Of a stretch of DNA of 50,727 nucleotides, positions 130 through 27,829 are shown piece by piece; position 1 is the first letter of the stretch, and every line of letters begins with the position of its first letter. Below the pieces are notes generated by a model that did no database searches, had not been told where the DNA came from, and saw nothing but the letters and a program-made list of their open reading frames with translations. Location of the stretch: NCBI GenBank assembly GCA_024650045.1, contig JANKMU010000003.1, positions 1 through 50,727 of the forward strand, read 5' to 3'. This DNA comes from Mycoplasmatota bacterium. GTDB taxonomy: Bacteria > Bacillota_I > Bacilli_A > Acholeplasmatales > Acholeplasmataceae. Both the position numbers and the translations under genes were made by a program.

Positions 130-822
130 ATGAAAACTATTGGTTTATTAGGTGGTATGAGTTGGGAATCAACACTTGAATATTATCGACTTATTAATTT
201 AGAAGTAAAAAATCGATTTGGTGGATCTCATTCTGCTAAAATTTTGATGTATTCATTTGATTATCATGAGTTAGAGTTATTACTTGAACAAGATCGTTGG
301 GATGAGATTACAAAGCTTTTAGTTTATCATGGCAAAAAGTTAAAAGAAAGTGGAGCAGATGTTTTAGTAATATGTGCAAATACCATGCATATTGTCGCTA
401 ATGAGGTTGAAAAACAAGTTGGTCTTCCATTAATTCACATTGCAAAAGCAACACTAAATGAAGTTCAAAATCTAGGTTTAAAGAAAGTTTTGTTAATTGG
501 AACCATGTATACGATGAAAAGCACTCTATATCCCGATATTTTCAGTGATCAAGATGTATCTATTATCACACCTGATACTAGAGACCAAGCATTGATACAC
601 CGTACAATTTATAAAGAACTCATTTTAGGTATATTTTCTAATGAAAGCAAAGAAAATTTTATAGAGATTATTAATAAATCAAAATTGATGGGAGTTCAAG
701 GAGTTATTTTAGGATGCACAGAAATCCCTATGTTAATTCAGCAACAAGATTTAGATATTCCGTTATTTAATACAATGAAAGTTCATGTAAAAGCAGCTGT
801 TGATTTTGCTTTAAATGATTAA
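130..822 (+). CDS. Aspartate/glutamate racemase family protein
   Basis: PLP-independent amino-acid racemase of the Asp/Glu racemase superfamily (RacX/YgeA type), 230 aa, cytosolic. The N-terminus carries the family signature IGLLGGMSWEST, and the two catalytic cysteines sit in CANTMH (Cys82) and GCTEI (Cys196), one in each lobe, so the two-base mechanism looks intact. An ATG at 118 is in frame, but TGAGGA at 119-124 overlaps it and sits 5 nt before the ATG at 130, which also gives the usual family N-terminus, so I choose 130. It stands alone between a promoter and a terminator. Substrate (Asp, Glu or another amino acid) cannot be read from sequence; many members have broad specificity. Confidence 0.9.
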   Translation: MKTIGLLGGMSWESTLEYYRLINLEVKNRFGGSHSAKILMYSFDYHELELLLEQDRWDEITKLLVYHGKKLKESGADVLVICANTMHIVANEVEKQVGLPLIHIAKATLNEVQNLGLKKVLLIGTMYTMKSTLYPDIFSDQDVSIITPDTRDQALIHRTIYKELILGIFSNESKENFIEIINKSKLMGVQGVILGCTEIPMLIQQQDLDIPLFNTMKVHVKAAVDFALND

Positions 823-853
823 GATAGAAAAGAATAGGTATCATTAAATGATA

Positions 854-890
854 GAATCTGACTTATATTCATAGTCAGTTCTTTTCTTTA
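854..890 (+). terminator. Terminator after the racemase gene
   Basis: CTGACT (858-863) pairs with AGTCAG (873-878), extended by GAA/TTC around one bulged T, and is followed by TTTTCTTTA. The stem is moderate, so termination may be incomplete. Confidence 0.6.
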
Positions 891-919
891 TTTACCAACA
901 CATAAATATTTGTTATAAT
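891..919 (+). promoter_or_regulatory. rocD promoter
   Basis: TGTTATAAT (911-919) is a consensus extended -10 element with a weak -35 (TTTACC, 891-896) at 17 nt. Transcription would start near 926, leaving a leader of about 115 nt before the ATG. Confidence 0.7.
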
Positions 920-930
920 GAATTTGTCGA

Positions 931-1005
931 GATGTTGTTAATGTATAAAAGGTTACAACATCTATTACGTTTCAAAAATCTTATGGCAGTAAGAGATTTA
1001 GATGT
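931..1005 (+). promoter_or_regulatory. Leader of rocD with two inverted repeats
   Basis: Between promoter and start codon GATGTTGT (931-938) is complementary to ACAACATC (955-962), and a little further on AAATCT pairs with AGATTT around a TATGGCAGTAAG loop. No U-run follows either stem, so this is not a plain terminator. It could control translation or mRNA stability, or be a regulator-binding dyad. No known riboswitch class is recognised. Confidence 0.4.
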
Positions 1006-1041
1006 AGCATTCCAAAACAATTAGAAAGGAGTAAAGATTTG

Positions 1042-2268
1042 ATGATTCAAATCTTACACAACAAAATGCTATCTTCAAAAGCATATATGGATATCGAAGC
1101 CAAATATGGTGCAAAAAATTATAAGCCAATTCCTGTTGTTATTAAAAGAGCTAAGGGGGTATGGGTGTGGGATCCTGAAGGAAAGAAATATTTAGATTGT
1201 TTGTCTGCATATTCAGCAGTTAATCAAGGACACCTTCATCCTAAAATTATTAAAGCTGTTAAAAAGCAAATGAAATCTGTGACATTAACATCAAGAGCAT
1301 TTTATAATGATCGCTTAGGATCATTTTTACAAAAATTATGTGATGTATCTGGTATGGAAGTAGCTCTACCTATGAATACTGGTGCAGAGGCTGTTGAAAC
1401 AGGTATTAAGATTGCAAGAAGATGGGGATATAGAGTTAAGAAAGTACCAGCTAATCAAGCAGAAATCATTACATGTAATGATAACTTTCATGGAAGAACA
1501 ACAACCATTGTTGGTTTTTCAACAGATCCAGGAGCAAATGAAGATTTTGGTCCTTTCACACCTGGATTTGTAAACATTCCTTTTAATGATACTAAAGCAT
1601 TAGAAAAAGCTATTACTCCAAATACAATTGCTTTTCTTGTGGAACCAATTCAAGGTGAAGCAGGTGTTATCATTCCTAAAGAAGGATACTTGAAAAAAGT
1701 TCGTGAAATATGCACTAAAAATAATGTATTATTGATTACTGATGAGATTCAAACTGGTTTTTGTAGAACTGGTAAGATGTTTTGCTTTATGCATGATGAT
1801 ATTAAACCTGATATCTTATTGGTAGGAAAAGCATTAGGTGGAGGCGTTATGCCAGTATCTGCTGCATTATCGAGTAAAGCTATTATGGATGTGATTACTC
1901 CAGGTTCTCATGGTAGTACATTTGGAGGTAATCCACTTGCTTGTGCAGTAGGAGAAGCTTCACTAGATGTTTTAATTGATGAAGCTTTAGCTGAGCGTTC
2001 AGAAAAATTAGGAAAATATTTTTATGAAGGTATTAAAGCAATCAACTCGCCATTGTTTAAAGAAATAAGAGGAAAAGGATTGTTTATCGCAATTCAGTTA
2101 ACTGATAAAGCAGGGAAGGCTAGAAAATATACTGAACAATTAAAAGAGTTAGGTTTATTAGCGAAAGAAACTCATGAGCATACGATTCGTTTAGCACCAC
2201 CACTTATCATTAAAGAATCTGAAATCGATTGGGCATTAGCAGTATTAAAGAAAGTATTTATAAGTTAA
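1042..2268 (+). CDS. rocD: Ornithine--oxo-acid aminotransferase
   Basis: Class III PLP aminotransferase, 408 aa, the full length of ornithine aminotransferases. It transfers the delta-amino group of ornithine to 2-oxoglutarate, giving glutamate-5-semialdehyde and glutamate. Visible landmarks are the phosphate-binding segment NTGAEAVET (112-120), the PLP-contacting Asp in DEIQTGFCRTG (Asp234), and the Schiff-base lysine in VGKALGGG (Lys263). The N-terminal segment YGAKNYKPIPVV and WVWDPEGKKYLDCLSAYSAV are typical of RocD rather than acetylornithine or GABA transaminases. TTG at 1039 is in frame, but ATG 1042 is better spaced from AAAGGAG (1025-1031). Monocistronic. With glutamate dehydrogenase at 10.5 kb it suggests arginine/ornithine catabolism, although no arginase or deiminase gene is in the window. 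Confidence 0.95.
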   Translation: MIQILHNKMLSSKAYMDIEAKYGAKNYKPIPVVIKRAKGVWVWDPEGKKYLDCLSAYSAVNQGHLHPKIIKAVKKQMKSVTLTSRAFYNDRLGSFLQKLCDVSGMEVALPMNTGAEAVETGIKIARRWGYRVKKVPANQAEIITCNDNFHGRTTTIVGFSTDPGANEDFGPFTPGFVNIPFNDTKALEKAITPNTIAFLVEPIQGEAGVIIPKEGYLKKVREICTKNNVLLITDEIQTGFCRTGKMFCFMHDDIKPDILLVGKALGGGVMPVSAALSSKAIMDVITPGSHGSTFGGNPLACAVGEASLDVLIDEALAERSEKLGKYFYEGIKAINSPLFKEIRGKGLFIAIQLTDKAGKARKYTEQLKELGLLAKETHEHTIRLAPPLIIKESEIDWALAVLKKVFIS

Positions 2269-2283
2269 AATATCTAAAATTAG

Positions 2284-2325
2284 AAAAGACCCTAAAGGTG
2301 AATGATACCTTTAAGGTCTTTTTTT
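2284..2325. terminator. Terminator shared by rocD and the convergent baeRF gene
   Basis: AAAGACC pairs with AGGTCTTT and an inner TAAAGGT pairs with ACCTTTA, followed by T7 on the plus strand. A-rich sequence on the 5' side gives a shorter U-run for the minus-strand gene, so it may serve both. Confidence 0.85.
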
Positions 2326-2338
2326 GATTGAATTTATT

Positions 2339-3487
2339 TTAGTACCTATAAATAGCTGCTACACCAGAATCGGTTGGCATATCTTCTTTATTTAAGATAA
2401 AAACATTTCCACTTTTTTCTAATGTATACTGTGCTAAATCATCTAGTATATCATCTACATCAGGATTGGTTAAAGCTTTTGTTTTCATTTTTTTATTAAT
2501 TGGATCAATTCGTCCAGATATCATTTTGTTTGATTCAATAAATAGCGTTTCAACACGACCATCTATTGCAGCTGATATAATCTCAATAAGTTGATCTGTA
2601 CTTTTTTCTTTAGTTCTTAATTGATGATATTGATCAATTAATTGATTGATTTTTTGATTCAAAATGTCTTTGGTAAAAGATTCGATTTGCTTCATTGTTT
2701 CTTCTTTACCTAAAGTCTCATAAGATCCTGATATTGCTTTTGATTGCAAATATTGATTATTAGATCTTTCAATAAATAATGTATGGTATTCACTAGGAGC
2801 AAGAAGAATTAAAGGATATTTCGATTGTTTAGAAACATTTTCATCAACAATATGATCAACATGTCTAAAAAATCTTTCTAGATCTATTTCTACTTCATCC
2901 TTTTTACCACCGTGTCCATGAAATGTTGATTTTCCAGTTGCTCCACCATAAGTTCCATGTGTTTGATAAGAATCAGTTTTTTCTGTACCAAGTATTTCAT
3001 CCTTTGTAGTTGGGATCTTATCATCTAGTTCAATCTTTTCAATATGATATGGAGTTCCTTCGAATATTTGAAAATGATGTGCATCTAAATCAAGAATTTG
3101 ATAAGTTTTCGCAATTTGGAAATAATGAATTAATGGTTTGATGTGAAAACTATCTGAGACAACTGCAAAAGTATTGATAGGTTTTTTCAGATTGTAAATA
3201 ATGCATTCATCTAAAGATGCAAATATGGCTATCCCATCAAAAGTATGACTCCAAAATGTGCTTGAATTTTCTAGTTCAGAAAACATCTCTACTAAAGGTT
3301 TTATTTCTTTTTTGTCATATTTTTCTAATAGAGATTTTTCAACTTCTTTCACCAGATTTTTAAAAACAAGTGCATCTCGCTTATTTTCTGTAAGGTGTCT
3401 GGATGTTTCTTGATAAATTGATATGAGTGGTGCTTTCTTGTTGTTAAAAAAATCATTAGGGAATGTGTCAACAATTTCATATTTCAT
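2339..3487 (-). CDS. baeRF family 3 protein (bacterial release-factor-like)
   Basis: 382 aa, cytosolic, no signal peptide or membrane segment. It resembles the bacterial archaeo-eukaryotic release factor (baeRF) families, in particular family 3. The N-terminal block PLISIYQETSRHLTENKRDA followed by a KNLVKEVEKSL helix is typical. The centre holds a Gly/His-rich loop (GTYGGATG, then FHGHGGKKDEVEIDLERFF), and the C-terminal third contains IDGRVETLFI. In family terms this loop sits where eRF1 carries its GGQ-type loop, and ribosome binding is the proposed but untested role. It is a single-gene unit preceded by AAGGATG-type RBS and a long structured leader (3488-3632). The family assignment is from pattern recognition; the biochemical function is unknown. 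Confidence 0.8.
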   Translation of the reverse strand: MKYEIVDTFPNDFFNNKKAPLISIYQETSRHLTENKRDALVFKNLVKEVEKSLLEKYDKKEIKPLVEMFSELENSSTFWSHTFDGIAIFASLDECIIYNLKKPINTFAVVSDSFHIKPLIHYFQIAKTYQILDLDAHHFQIFEGTPYHIEKIELDDKIPTTKDEILGTEKTDSYQTHGTYGGATGKSTFHGHGGKKDEVEIDLERFFRHVDHIVDENVSKQSKYPLILLAPSEYHTLFIERSNNQYLQSKAISGSYETLGKEETMKQIESFTKDILNQKINQLIDQYHQLRTKEKSTDQLIEIISAAIDGRVETLFIESNKMISGRIDPINKKMKTKALTNPDVDDILDDLAQYTLEKSGNVFILNKEDMPTDSGVAAIYRY

Positions 3488-3632
3488 GAATCTATCATCC
3501 TTTCTTTTTTTTAACCAAATCAGCTTATGTAATAAAAAGCCGACCTGTTTTGGTCGTCTTAAGATAGGTGTATTCGCAAAATGCGAGTAGAAAAATAGGA
3601 ATACGATTGCTATCTATAGGCAACCATATGGT
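3488..3632 (-). promoter_or_regulatory. Structured 5' leader of the baeRF gene, attenuator-like
   Basis: The predicted transcript starts near 3632 and runs about 145 nt to the start codon. It contains a closing stem of 6 bp (plus-strand AGATAG 3562-3567 with CTATCT 3610-3615), an inner 6-bp stem (GTATTC 3570-3575 with GAATAC 3599-3604), and a short hairpin CGCA-AAA-TGCG (3575-3585) that competes for one base. Next in the RNA comes a CGACC/GGTCG hairpin (3541-3556) followed by a U-rich run (plus-strand AATAAAAAG), which looks like an intrinsic terminator about 50 nt before the ATG. A TTGC/GCAA hairpin overlapping the closing stem gives an alternative fold. I recognise no known riboswitch class. 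Confidence 0.5.
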
Positions 3633-3638
3633 ACTCTT

Positions 3639-3667
3639 ATATTAACATATTCTAAGTGTTTAGTCAA
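3639..3667 (-). promoter_or_regulatory. Promoter of the baeRF gene
   Basis: On the minus strand TTGACT (plus 3662-3667), a 17-nt spacer and TAATAT (plus 3639-3644) with an upstream TGT form a near-consensus vegetative promoter with extended -10. A 10-bp palindrome ACCATATGGT (3623-3632) lies at the predicted start site. Confidence 0.8.
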
Positions 3668-3714
3668 AGAGGCTGACCTGATAGTTATCTGAAAAACAAA
3701 TGGTTTAATAATAA

Positions 3715-3761
3715 CAAAAAAACCCTCGTTACCGCTTAAAGAAGCTATAATGAAGGTTTTT
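3715..3761 (-). terminator. Terminator of the GH81 gene
   Basis: Read on the minus strand, AAAAACCTTCATTATAGCTT folds back on AAGCGGTAACGAGGGTTTTT with two mismatches and G-U pairs, and ends in a run of seven U. It lies directly after the stop codon. Confidence 0.8.
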
Positions 3762-3773
3762 AAAAACTTTATT

Positions 3774-6524
3774 TTAGTTGGACAAACGACGAGCTATTAG
3801 ACTTCTAGATGGTACAGTGATGGAAATAGATTCATTGGATGGTGATCTAAAAGTTATGATTTGTTCTTGATCACTTGGATTCCAAATCATTGCATTCACA
3901 TTCCCTAAGTCATCTTTATAGATAGATGAAGATACACGTTCATGTATTTCCATAACATAGGATGTTTCTCGTTTTCCATAACTTTCAAGAGCATGAATTA
4001 AATAATAAGTTTGAGATAAGTCACTAGGATAATCATCATTTAAAATTTTTGAAGCATCAAATTGATTGATTGCAGTTGATGGGTTAATGAGTGCCTGAAC
4101 GCTCCACATAGTAGCATACCAAGTGTCTATTGTCTGATTTTTGGCAAGTAAGTAGTCAGAGTATATATCATTTAACCGTGCTCTTTCATCATCATTTAAC
4201 GCATAATTTGAAATGTATTCTCCATTTGGTAACCATTGGATACCATAGATGAATGTAGGATTTGCACCAAACCATGTTGCGTAATCATATTTACCGCCCC
4301 AAATCATACCCGCAATAGATGCATACATACTATATTTTTCTGGGAAAATAGTTTCTGAATAATCCATCATATATGTTTTTGCTGCATTAAGTTCTGTAAC
4401 AAACCCATATATTGCTGCATCTCTACGATCGATATCATTTTCTGATAAAGCCCATAAATACCCTCCTACCCAAGATTGTAATGCTTCACTTGAGGATTCG
4501 ATATTATTACCCTCAGCAAATGTTCCAAAACCATGTGCCCAAGTATGACCAGCCCATGGATCAAAAGATCTTAGATAAGCATAATCATAGTCGTCTTTAT
4601 ATGGATACATATAATCGTTTAATAATGCTTCAACAATATCTTTATAATCACTAGAAAATGATTCATCATACATGGATAACACACTAGCGCCATAGATGAG
4701 ATAACCATGGGTAAAACTATGGTCACTTAATTCACTAGCTGTATTAAAATCATTGTTAGAGTAATAAACTGAACCCCAGGCTTCGTTGTAATATAAATAA
4801 CGTTCATCAGTGGTTGAGTCGTAGGTAAACCAATCGGATAATAGATATCTAAGTTTTGATATAAAGGAAGTTTTAAGTGCTTCATCACCAATTTGATCGG
4901 CAATAATAATACCCTGAGCAAGTGGATAAATAGCTTTACCATTCCAATAAGGTCCTTCATCATTTAAGAAATTTTCAGAATCATTAATTTGAGTTCTAGT
5001 ATCTAGATCATTCAAATAAGTTGTCATATGAGTTTCACTGAACTCATCATTATTAGGCAAAGTCATAGCAGGTAGCAAACCGTGAAATGAAAGTGATGTT
5101 TGAAAATGTGAACCTATCATAAGCTTTAATTCACCACGAACAGTATTAAAACTATAATCTGTAACTTCTTGAGTGCTGCTTTGATAGTGATGAGGCATTA
5201 AAAATTGTAAAGGTTCTTTAGTGTTGTTTTCTTTTAAGTATTGAACTGATAAATGGTAATTCGTTTCAACGATACTATCTTCGTGATGAACTTGATAAGA
5301 AACATCACCTTTGAGTGTTGTTGTATATGCATGTTGATGATAAAATGATGCTTCTGATAAAGATTGTATTGTAGCAACAGAAAAGTAATTTTCATCACCT
5401 AAATTCATTGTTATTTTATTTAAAAGGGAAGCGGGATGATTATCTGATGATAAATTAAATAATGTTGTATCCGGGGTACTAATTAAAAAATAACGATCTC
5501 CATAGATAGGTTGACCAACTTGTGCTGGTCTATACGTTTCATAACCTATATGTTTTTGGACTAAGCGAATAACGATCCCACTACCTGTATGTGTAGTTCC
5601 ATTAATCAGGTTTCCATCAGTTGTGAAATATTCGTAACTTGCTACACCATTTGAAGCTAATTTAAGATATGCAGAGTCTGATTTCGCAACTTCAGCAAAT
5701 ACAAAAGGAGACCCTTGTGTGTAAGTCATTACCATTTGATCTTGAGGTTGGCCAGTGTTTCTCATTGCAACTTTAACGTTTGTATCACTATAATCTATAA
5801 CATGAGTTGTATAACCTAAATTTAGGTTTGTCGTTTTTATATGTATATCAGGTAAAGCCAATGAAAAATTAGCCATAGTATTGTACCCATCTGGATTCCA
5901 GTATTGAACAAAACCAGAACCCGGGTTAGTAATTTCAACACCATCATTACTAAATGAAGATCTTAATGGATTTGTATAGATACCATTACCACCACCATAA
6001 TTAGTAGCTAATAATGAAGTCCACCATCCGTTTGACGGTACAGCGTGTTCTAGTAAGTTTGGATTAAGGAGTTGAGGATTTATGGGATGATCAATCTCAG
6101 GTGCGTTGCCTACGCGATATGATCCTGCATTGCTTTGAACGATAGAAGAAGAATGAGTACTTCTTTGGTTTGAAGATCTATTTATTGTCCCATCTATTAC
6201 CTTAACCAATCTGTTTTGATTGATTTCATCATCGCCATAAGTCATTTGGTAATTCAATTCATATTCGCCAATATTACCATAATGAACATTTCCAGTTACA
6301 TTCAATAAATAAGTTATATCATCTTGATTTTGATTTAGTATTTTCACGTCATCAAGTGGATTGAAGTATTCGTTTTTTATAACTTCAATATCGTCTAGTC
6401 CGATGACTTCAGTAATTTCTTGTGGGAGAGTTATACCAGGTGTAGTTTGATCATTGTTGTTTTTACATGCAACTAATGTGAATAGCATAATTAATAATAT
6501 AAACACAAAACTTTTTTTAAACAT
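3774..6524 (-). CDS. Secreted GH81 endo-1,3-beta-glucanase lipoprotein
   Basis: 916 aa. The N-terminus is a lipoprotein signal (MFKKSF, hydrophobic core, lipobox LVAC with Cys20). Residues about 30-110 look like an Ig/cadherin-like module (YFNPLDDVKIL ... GEYELNYQMTY). The rest matches glycoside hydrolase family 81: TNYGGGNGIYTNPLRSSFS near the start, ELSDHSFTHGYLIYGAS around residue 600, and DPWAGHTWAHGFG followed by ESSSEALQSWVGGYLWA around residue 673, which holds the conserved glutamates. GH81 enzymes cut internal beta-1,3-glucosidic bonds in laminarin, callose and fungal or algal glucans, so the protein probably acts on the outer face of the membrane. A TTG at 6536 is in frame, but GGAGG (plus 6530-6534) places the start at 6524. 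It is a single-gene unit; no sugar transporter adjoins it. Confidence 0.93.
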   Translation of the reverse strand: MFKKSFVFILLIMLFTLVACKNNNDQTTPGITLPQEITEVIGLDDIEVIKNEYFNPLDDVKILNQNQDDITYLLNVTGNVHYGNIGEYELNYQMTYGDDEINQNRLVKVIDGTINRSSNQRSTHSSSIVQSNAGSYRVGNAPEIDHPINPQLLNPNLLEHAVPSNGWWTSLLATNYGGGNGIYTNPLRSSFSNDGVEITNPGSGFVQYWNPDGYNTMANFSLALPDIHIKTTNLNLGYTTHVIDYSDTNVKVAMRNTGQPQDQMVMTYTQGSPFVFAEVAKSDSAYLKLASNGVASYEYFTTDGNLINGTTHTGSGIVIRLVQKHIGYETYRPAQVGQPIYGDRYFLISTPDTTLFNLSSDNHPASLLNKITMNLGDENYFSVATIQSLSEASFYHQHAYTTTLKGDVSYQVHHEDSIVETNYHLSVQYLKENNTKEPLQFLMPHHYQSSTQEVTDYSFNTVRGELKLMIGSHFQTSLSFHGLLPAMTLPNNDEFSETHMTTYLNDLDTRTQINDSENFLNDEGPYWNGKAIYPLAQGIIIADQIGDEALKTSFISKLRYLLSDWFTYDSTTDERYLYYNEAWGSVYYSNNDFNTASELSDHSFTHGYLIYGASVLSMYDESFSSDYKDIVEALLNDYMYPYKDDYDYAYLRSFDPWAGHTWAHGFGTFAEGNNIESSSEALQSWVGGYLWALSENDIDRRDAAIYGFVTELNAAKTYMMDYSETIFPEKYSMYASIAGMIWGGKYDYATWFGANPTFIYGIQWLPNGEYISNYALNDDERARLNDIYSDYLLAKNQTIDTWYATMWSVQALINPSTAINQFDASKILNDDYPSDLSQTYYLIHALESYGKRETSYVMEIHERVSSSIYKDDLGNVNAMIWNPSDQEQIITFRSPSNESISITVPSRSLIARRLSN

Positions 6525-17617: not shown

Positions 17618-18352
17618 ATGAAAGTCATGATAACTGGACTCAATGGTACTGTTGCTCCTGAAGTTGCAAAATACTTCTTTTCTAAAGGTGCTGAGATTAT
17701 TCAATATAAAAGAGATGAAGTTACTGTGGAAAATGAAATGGCAATCCATTCTTTTTTACTAGAGCATAAACCAGATTATTTTCTTCATTTTGCTATGGGA
17801 TCCCCGGAATGGGCAGGATTATTAGCTAAGTTGACCAAAGAGTTAAATATTCAGTTTGCTTATATTAGTACAGTTAGTGTATATAGTGGAAAACAAACTG
17901 CTCCAATAACCATAGATCATCAACCAGATGCAGAAGATGAATATGGAGCATATAAAATAGTATCCGAGAAAAAAGTGCTTAAAAATAATCCCAATTCATT
18001 TATTTTAAGAATTGGATGGCAAATTGGAACTAGACCGGGATCCAATAACATGATTGACTTTTTATATAAACAAATGGAAGCACATCAAGTTATCAAAGCA
18101 TCTACGAAATGGTATCCATCTTGCTCATTTATGGAGGATACTTCTGCTGCAATTTTCGATACAATAAATAATTTAAAACCAGATACATATCTTATCAATA
18201 GTAATGACTCATTTTCGTTTTATGAGATTGCGAATTATTTGTCAACAATACATAAAAATTTAAAAGTTGAAAAGACAGATGATTTTGCTCAAGATGTACG
18301 AATGATTGACGAAAGAGTTCATATCAAAAAAATGAGTGAATATATAAAATAA
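17618..18352 (+). CDS. NAD-dependent epimerase / dTDP-4-dehydrorhamnose-reductase-like protein
   Basis: 244 aa extended short-chain dehydrogenase. The N-terminal Rossmann motif is unusual but readable (MKVMITGLNGTVAPEVAKYF). Catalytic features are STVSVYSG and YGAYKIVSEK (Tyr-x3-Lys), and the RmlD-like C-terminal domain is short. The likely substrate is a nucleotide sugar or related compound, unknown here. A GTG at 17609 is in frame, but GGGAGG (17604-17609) overlaps it and serves ATG 17618 at 8 nt. It lies 47 nt after the AhpD-like gene, probably in the same transcript. Confidence 0.82.
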   Translation: MKVMITGLNGTVAPEVAKYFFSKGAEIIQYKRDEVTVENEMAIHSFLLEHKPDYFLHFAMGSPEWAGLLAKLTKELNIQFAYISTVSVYSGKQTAPITIDHQPDAEDEYGAYKIVSEKKVLKNNPNSFILRIGWQIGTRPGSNNMIDFLYKQMEAHQVIKASTKWYPSCSFMEDTSAAIFDTINNLKPDTYLINSNDSFSFYEIANYLSTIHKNLKVEKTDDFAQDVRMIDERVHIKKMSEYIK

Positions 18353-18479
18353 AGCTTTTATATAGCGATTTACTAGCTCTCAACAGAACATAATTAAATG
18401 AAAAATACTGCTTGAAAACAAGTTTAATTATTTATTATAAATTTCTTTATTTTCATGGATACAAATTCTTAAATAAGAG

Positions 18480-18485
18480 TATAAT
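18480..18485 (+). promoter_or_regulatory. -10 element of the leader/peptide transcript
   Basis: A consensus TATAAT at 18480-18485 sits about 170 nt before the 29-codon reading frame; no clear -35 is visible. The upstream stretch 18353-18479 otherwise holds only AT-rich sequence with a weak CTTG-AAAA-CAAG hairpin that may end the epimerase transcript. Confidence 0.45.
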
Positions 18486-18490
18486 TAAGT

Positions 18491-18625
18491 TGAAGGACAA
18501 AACCTTCATATGTTCAGCAAACTAAGATGCTGTAAACTAGATTAAACCTCTTAATCGCACATGATTTTTATATCAAATGGCTATTAACATTTAGCGGTTT
18601 ACCGTATTGTCAAACTGATATAAAA
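18491..18625 (+). ncRNA. Structured leader RNA of unknown class
   Basis: Four consecutive stems can be drawn: TGAAGG/CCTTCA (18491-18508, six-base loop), CAGCA/TGCTG (18515-18532), GATTAA/TTAATC (18540-18556, five-base loop), and a 10-bp closing stem TTTTATATCA/TGATATAAAA (18566-18575 with 18616-18625) enclosing GCTA/TAGC and CGGT/ACCG pairings. The density of pairing in such AT-rich DNA suggests a selected structure. It lies between a TATAAT box and a 29-codon frame with its own terminator. It does not match tmRNA, SRP RNA or RNase P RNA motifs. It may be a cis-regulatory leader or an independent small RNA. Confidence 0.5.
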
Positions 18626-18651
18626 CGATGAGTGAAAGGAAGGTGAATCAA

Positions 18652-18741
18652 ATGAAAGATAAGAAACAGGCTAAAAAAGTTCAAGCAAGCAAACCAGCAC
18701 AACAAGCACCAGTTAAATCAACTAAGACAGTTAAGAAGTAA
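18652..18741 (+). CDS. 29-residue Lys/Ala/Gln-rich basic peptide
   Basis: A 30-codon frame (ATG 18652 to TAA 18741) with a strong purine-rich RBS (AAAGGAAGGTG). The product begins MKDKKQAKKVQASKP and ends STKTVKK; it is very basic, has no hydrophobic, aromatic or cysteine residues, and is predicted to be disordered. It has its own leader and terminator, which argues for real expression. It could bind RNA, DNA or ribosomes, or be a leader peptide, but I do not recognise it. Confidence 0.55.
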   Translation: MKDKKQAKKVQASKPAQQAPVKSTKTVKK

Positions 18742-18808
18742 GAATTAAATTGTGTTTAAAAAACTGACTGTTTAATCACAGTTAGACTATAAAAAATAAA
18801 ACGACCCA

Positions 18809-18841
18809 CATGCCAGTCATTTTGACTGACATGTTTTTTTA
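18809..18841 (+). terminator. Terminator of the 29-aa peptide transcript
   Basis: CATG-C-CAGTCA pairs with TGACTG-A-CATG around a TTT loop, followed by seven T. A weaker CTGACTG/CAGTTAG stem precedes it. Confidence 0.85.
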
Positions 18842-18964
18842 TTAATTAGCTTTACATCTATATAAAATAGGTTTATTTGATAGTTTGATGTATACTACTA
18901 CTATAAGTAAGTTATATATATGCTTATTAATTAAAATCATTTCATAAGAAAGGAGAAAAGAAAA

Positions 18965-19315
18965 ATGTTTAATGAAATTGCTCGAATTATTATTGCATTA
19001 TCAATTTTATTAATATTGTTTTTTGCATATACGAGAAAAGATAAACTACCAACTTTTGTTTCATTCACAATTTTAGGATCAATTGCCTTAAGTATGGCTT
19101 TTTCAGGATTTGCTGGGCTTATATCAGGTATTGATTTTTTAAACTTTTTAGAGAGTATTTTTAGAACTTTAGCAGACTTAGTTGTGTTTGTTGAGATTGT
19201 CATTATATTATTTTTACTATTTTTCTCTAAATTTAAAACCAAATTTATGTTATTAAAAGTTGTTATTATTGTTTATGTAGTATTAACAGCTATTCTCGCA
19301 TTTGGAATTATTTAA
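18965..19315 (+). CDS. Hypothetical membrane protein with four hydrophobic segments
   Basis: 116 aa, mostly hydrophobic. Predicted membrane segments lie near residues 5-22, 28-52, 65-86 and 93-114, with a small polar loop at 22-28 (YTRKDKL) and a basic loop KFKTK. AAGGAG stands 9 nt before ATG 18965. It is a single-gene unit with a terminator. I recognise no family; the size recalls small membrane proteins of stress or lipid functions, but that is not evidence of function. Confidence 0.75.
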   Translation: MFNEIARIIIALSILLILFFAYTRKDKLPTFVSFTILGSIALSMAFSGFAGLISGIDFLNFLESIFRTLADLVVFVEIVIILFLLFFSKFKTKFMLLKVVIIVYVVLTAILAFGII

Positions 19316-27489: not shown

Positions 27490-27829
27490 TGGTGGAGATG
27501 AGGGGAATTGAACCCCTGTGCAAAACACTTCATAAAGCACTTTCTACATGTTTAGTTTGTTTATGATTTAATGCTTTAACCTAAACAAACAAAAGGTTAT
27601 AACACGATCCTATAAGGTTCTTTTATTGTCCTAGGAAAAACAATAAATATAACTTACTAAAATTGGGCCGCATCAGAACCGTAAGTGAATTCAGAATTGG
27701 CTCGCACCTTTTCTTAGGCAGCGAAACTTAAAGATTGGTTTCCGGTTATAATAACCTCGGCTTTTTTACTTGAGCAACCAAGACATGCTTATACTCTACT
27801 CCATGCCGTGACGAATCCAGAACATCCCC
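27490..27829 (-). ncRNA. ssrA: tmRNA (ssrA)
   Basis: Read on the minus strand the RNA starts GGGGATGTTCTGGATTCG and ends GGTTCAATTCCCCTCATCTC followed by CACCA, the tRNA-like domain of tmRNA with an encoded CCA. The 5' GGGGATG pairs with CATCTCC. An internal reading frame begins at GCC after AAGTAAAAAA and encodes the degradation tag AEVIITGNQSLSFAA, then TAA: 15 residues, ending in AA as expected for ClpXP-type or Lon recognition. About 340 nt, one piece, not permuted. It has its own promoter and terminator. Confidence 0.95.

Follow-up and report, generated by a model that had tools for sequence, protein, structure and literature searches.

A conserved structured leader and a lysine-rich micro-protein form a free-standing unit, possibly a translational switch, in wall-less bacteria

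The autoregulatory leaders of ribosomal-protein genes, such as those for S15 (rpsO) and L20, form competing folds, sometimes with a long-range helix or pseudoknot, beside the Shine–Dalgarno (SD) sequence of a small basic RNA-binding protein. The cspA-type cold-shock leader is an RNA of ~160 nt whose alternative folds alter SD access for a small nucleic-acid-binding protein. Histone H1-like tails are low-complexity sequences of Lys, Ala and Pro with KPAPK-like repeats. Here we describe a locus in the window (the whole stretch of 50,727 nucleotides that was analysed) that resembles each of these in part. Judging from comparison of related sequences, the locus is a real, free-standing gene for a tiny Lys-rich protein with a conserved structured leader. 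This leader, about 165 nt in length, is a new conserved RNA element; no description of the leader or of the peptide turned up in our searches, and both are placed in no family. We favour, with a probability of roughly 0.6, the reading that a single-gene transcription unit makes a cationic, probably disordered micro-protein whose translation is switched by the leader.

The unit occupies positions 18456–18840 of the forward strand. Its promoter (18456–18485) comprises a −35 element, TGGATA (18456–18461), an 18-nt spacer and a −10 element, TATAAT (18480–18485). A promoter scan alone performed at chance level (4 sites versus 4.1 expected), and support for the promoter therefore comes from the −10 element and its flanks, which are kept in related units. 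Hairpin H1 (18491–18508), which shows compensatory changes in relatives, lies near the expected 5′ end of the transcript and is followed by a local hairpin, H2 (18515–18532), the 3′ arm of which is re-used by a long-range helix, P2 (18526–18537 with 18597–18608). In the minimum-energy fold for the window species, ACCTCTT at 18546–18552 is a candidate anti-SD strand. The SD, GAAAGGAAGGTGA (18634–18646), precedes a frame of 29 codons plus stop (18652–18741) encoding the Lys-rich micro-protein MKDKKQAKKVQASKPAQQAPVKSTKTVKK. Downstream are a 3′ UTR hairpin (18762–18785), seen by eye in many genus relatives, and an intrinsic terminator private to the unit (18808–18840), which was found by a terminator scan; terminator-like sites within 18300–19000 number 3 against 0.1 expected. 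The TATAAT, 29-codon frame, strong ribosome-binding site and strong terminator proposed in the initial annotation are thus all present at 18480–18840. The 356-nt RNA folds at −71.1 kcal/mol, compared with −56.0 kcal/mol in dinucleotide shuffles (0/100 as stable, z = −3.4), and the leader alone is likewise more stable than its shuffles (z = −3.7, 0/60 as stable).

Three further features were noted along the transcript. Its start, at 18490–18507 in the window and reading GAAGGTGAGG in many relatives, looks like the main SD and is paired within H1; it might compete with the SD for the anti-SD strand. By eye, several A leaders and some B leaders also contain a short upstream frame, AUG-(AUG/GUG)-CUG-stop, overlapping P2; as this frame lacks an SD and is not constant in length, no claim is attached to it. 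In many genus units the 3′ UTR hairpin, between frame and terminator, precedes AGAC and a run of A residues, and compensatory changes are apparent by eye.

The unit was found in 16/20 genomes of the genus, in 20/160 genomes of the order and in 3/6 genomes of a distant genus in the class. A DNA search of the genus matched it in 14/20 genomes. A peptide profile search reached 16/20 in the genus and 20/160 in the order, the order matches comprising the genus plus 2/5 of another genus and 2/3 of a third; the remaining genera sampled from the window's family gave no peptide profile match. A class sample of 395 genomes yielded one additional unit, G335, the sole peptide match among 34 genomes of its family; together with two units described below (G294 and G511) it makes up the three from the distant genus. 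A pattern scan of genome contigs returned 49 stretches; a K/P/A-rich frame follows some of these, which belong to the same family of units, and the others are unrelated genes. Among these units is that of Peloplasma aerotolerans M4Ah (Acholeplasmataceae), the nearest named relative. Neither the peptide profile nor the leader model described below detected a unit in four of the 20 genus genomes (G001, G008, G009 and G018); completeness is 81–85% in three of these and 92% in G018, so true loss does not follow.

We aligned eight leaders from the −10 element to the ATG without structural information (alignment A5), which placed the P2 strands of the window in the same columns as those of the others, and built from this alignment a covariance model, R1, that stops at the start codon. 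Searching the 160 order genomes with R1 recovered 15 true units, including G106 and divergent A leaders; only 5/160 genomes matched a fixed DNA pattern of the B leader. When the distant family was searched, R1 located two new units, G294 and G511. The next frames after these leaders encode MAELKKAPAKPAGKK and MAQTKAAPAKPAPAKPAPAKPAGKK, each preceded by the same SD and ending in KPAGKK. That a search with the leader only predicted the peptide is our strongest single result. Across 23 loci, R1 recovered 22 end to end at E ≤ 0.001, among them 14/15 of the loci outside model building. R1 matches in G015 (on another contig), G129 and G098 (E 0.002–0.008), G400 and G247 were regarded as chance hits and are not counted. 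Leader and peptide occur together in every unit seen.

We analysed the conservation of the helices on two alignments and by an alignment-independent test. On the eight unfitted rows of A5, P2+P3 pairs in 85.4% of cells versus 31–55% when slid, H2 in 76.2% versus 25–58% and H1 in 73.3% versus 34–69%; covariation of P2+P3 on these eight rows is not clearly above shuffles (42 to 434 of 500). A second alignment, A7, holds 22 rows, without G015, which R1 missed. On A7, which was fitted to P2 and hence leans towards it, 90.2% of P2 cells are paired, with changes on both sides in 4/7 pairs; on the same alignment H1+P2+P3 pairs in 79.5% of cells versus 32–46% when slid, 48 cells are changed on both sides versus 18.9 in shuffles, and 0/500 shuffles reach any of five measures. 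Independently of any alignment, native P2 strands out-pair swapped ones among 13 clade representatives (median 4/5000 permutations), compared with medians of 297 to 3835 of 5000 for four control strand pairs; with all 21 leaders the figure is 0/20000. H2, which is outside the model, pairs in 70.0% of A7 cells versus 25.7–54.5% when slid, and its covariation score is reached by 4/500 shuffles; it is absent or weak in 5/21 leaders (G019, G028, G106, G073 and G074). The fixed SD leaves the anti-SD helix with little covariation.

Because H2 and P2 share four alignment columns (87–90), their full coexistence is impossible, and the leader thus contains two mutually exclusive conserved pairings. Collectively, the comparisons indicate a conserved unit in which H1, H2 and P2 are each kept by compensatory change and H2 competes with P2. 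Stems and frame are both conserved in relatives; a lack of such conservation is what the initial annotation had named as grounds for abandoning the unit. One stem fared differently. The 10-bp closing stem stressed in that annotation is present in the window (18566–18575 with 18616–18625), where it crosses P2, and is not kept beyond the closest species, G005. As it is unchanged between these two and occurs in no other unit compared, it has no covariation support, and it was rejected as the conserved core.

The unpaired parts differ strongly between A and B leaders. Such divergence would be unusual for an aptamer, and it bears on whether the leader could be a riboswitch of a new class that senses a small molecule. 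An alternative pairing near the SD and some conserved sequence, such as CGCCTNNNNCACCATTTGG in B-type leaders, are what a riboswitch might display; given also that no metabolic-pathway gene is attached and that no Rfam family matches, we regard this identity as very improbable.

We used predicted folds to examine how the alternative pairings would affect the SD. When P2 is imposed, opening the SD takes less energy in 16/20 leaders, the mean falling from 4.6 to 1.7 kcal/mol; this drop is larger than when the remainder of the leader is shuffled (Wilcoxon p 0.007, a value that is optimistic because the rows are related). L060, which is the same unit as G002, was left out of this comparison, as no P2 core could be named. 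In these models, P2 formation thus predicts a freer SD. Hiding of the SD in the native leaders is weaker in signal (p 0.06 against shuffles): the opening energy exceeds the shuffled mean in 13/21 leaders, clearly so (≤3/60 shuffles) in 6. The contrast between hidden and open states is therefore favourable on average and uneven among species. With temperature, the opening energy falls in 19/21 leaders and rises in G010 and G012, a pattern that singles out no thermosensor. G294 and G511, found later, stand outside the strand-swap, SD-opening, H2-presence and P2-forcing tests.

The energetic cost of P2 bears on a different reading, in which the leader is a permanent structural element whose H1, together with the rod formed by P2, protects or presents the message, with no switching. 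In 7/20 leaders (G019, G003, G004, G016, L080, G028 and G106) P2 costs ≤2 kcal/mol, placing them near the P2 state, and such an element would also suit both the standing of P2 as the better supported helix and the five leaders in which H2 is missing or weak. It would not account for the conservation of H2 in its own right, on an alignment unfitted to it and in overlap with P2. Nor does it sit well with the cost of 8–12 kcal/mol in the window and G005, where the predicted ground state consequently lacks P2; for the window, the free ensemble, with the SD hidden, is predicted to lie 8.4 kcal/mol below the P2 state. We consider a permanent element possible, though doubtful.

The peptide was compared across the family. 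Its length ranges from 15 to 40 amino acids (28–40 in 20 members, 15 and 25 in the G294 and G511 units), and frames differ in length between members by whole codons. The composition over the 20 members is Lys 25%, Pro 23%, Ala 20%, Gln 11% and Val 9%, with Arg, Leu, Trp, Tyr, Cys and His absent, and KK stands at the C-terminal end in 23/23 units examined. The window and G005 peptides are the Lys-richest, Pro-poor members. The initial annotation had called the window peptide highly basic and free of hydrophobic residues: it is indeed Lys-rich and without Leu, Ile, Phe, Trp, Tyr or Cys, and it contains 3 Val and 4 Ala. The product is probably a disordered, cationic micro-protein. A type I toxin–antitoxin system, whose toxin would be a hydrophobic membrane peptide, was rejected on this Lys/Pro/Ala-rich composition with no Leu, Trp or Tyr.

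No part of the unit is more constant than the SD and frame, and AAAGNNAGGTGA stands before the start codon in 21/21 leaders compared as well as in G294 and G511. The ratio pN/pS is below 1 (0.00 to 0.66) in all nine of ten pairs that have a synonymous change, the pairs overlapping in membership; the tenth has 0 synonymous and 3 non-synonymous changes, and G106 was left out for two undetermined bases in its frame. By this measure the frame is under purifying selection. These observations weigh against a transcript that is mainly a small regulatory RNA with the peptide as second product or relic, as does the return of the RNA-only search to the peptide. A short, free-standing structured RNA with a terminator, and a 3′ UTR hairpin that by eye recurs in the genus, is what a small RNA could look like, and we judge this account improbable. 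The proposal that the locus encodes a regulated small basic protein is supported by the joint conservation of frame and leader and by the presence, near the SD, of two pairings that overlap and are each conserved.

We next consider the genomic surroundings. By scan, 20/23 units have a private terminator; the other three show, by eye, a hairpin that has mismatches or a less extended T-run. Neighbouring genes are common to the window and G005, and other units adjoin different genes. Downstream of the window unit lies what we take to be a membrane protein gene; in G003, G004, G014 and G019 the downstream genes presumably form a hydrogenase/NuoE-like operon, and in G013 and G015 the corresponding gene appears TatD-like. 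At loci L003–L006 we likewise assume a NuoE/hydrogenase-like operon downstream in 4/4 (L004 being near a contig end), with presumed GntR-like regulator genes upstream on the other strand at L003, L005 and L006. The next gene in the short-peptide units of G294 and G511 (L128 and L129) presumably encodes a U32-family-like peptidase. Among the units compared, no conserved downstream structural gene shares a transcript with the unit. The placement of a short frame between structured leader and terminator might recall a leader-peptide attenuator for a downstream gene, as the initial annotation had offered. Private termination in most units, differing downstream genes and a structured part that lies upstream of the frame argue against such a system, which we find barely credible.

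Searches of known families agree with the earlier impression that neither RNA nor peptide belongs to a recognised class. At the gathering score, Rfam matched only tmRNA in the whole window, elsewhere than the unit; at the locus (E ≤ 5) it gave sub-threshold matches only, all on the other strand, and in six relatives one sub-threshold match, off the unit. Profile searches of four representative peptides found no Pfam or NCBIfam family at E ≤ 1. A literature search found no paper naming the unit, and literal peptide strings returned 0 papers. Length and an internal frame had suggested tmRNA; the tmRNA gene of this genome sits at 27490–27829 on the reverse strand (tag GNQSLSFAA), and this identity was rejected. 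So was 6S RNA, for which RF00013 matches 0/20 genus genomes, including that of the window, versus 5/14 control genomes; the unit RNA resembles 6S RNA as a long imperfect rod and differs in carrying a frame.

If the leader is a translational switch, its off state would have H2 formed and the middle strand free to cover the SD, and in its on state P2 would form, occupying the middle strand and leaving the SD open. Bounded by H1 at its 5′ end and by the terminator at its 3′ end, the message would be short and stable. Candidate signals are the peptide, a protein, temperature or a small molecule. More speculatively, charge may be what lets the peptide act on RNA, DNA or ribosomes, and the peptide itself may move the leader from one state to the other. 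The boldest reading of the unit is an autogenous switch, in which a disordered polycation of 15–40 amino acids with RNA-annealing or condensing activity, whose synthesis its own leader controls, would bind RNA and in doing so tip that leader from H2 to P2 or back. We think this unlikely; if true, free-living wall-less bacteria would have a translational autoregulator of extremely small size, whose charge and ending are conserved and whose length is not.

With this unit, a group of wall-less bacteria about whose gene regulation little is known gains a candidate family of cis-regulatory RNA and a family of micro-proteins. The constant association of leader and peptide across a 15–40-residue range offers a clean test of the role of a minimal Lys-only disordered protein in a bacterial cell, and the unit equally suits asking whether so small a product controls its own message.

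Compared with known systems, the unit shares with histone H1-like tails a KPAPK-like, repetitive, Lys-only low-complexity composition, and differs in that its peptide is free-standing, only 15–40 amino acids long and without a family match. Its product matches no cold-shock domain family, unlike that of cspA, and its leader is similar in being about 160 nt long with alternative folds near the SD. Unlike the products of the S15/rpsO and L20 systems, its product is no ribosomal protein by Pfam or NCBIfam, is without Arg, has 15–40 amino acids and stands alone; the likeness to those systems is that competing folds of a structured leader lie beside the SD and that the gene encodes a small basic protein.
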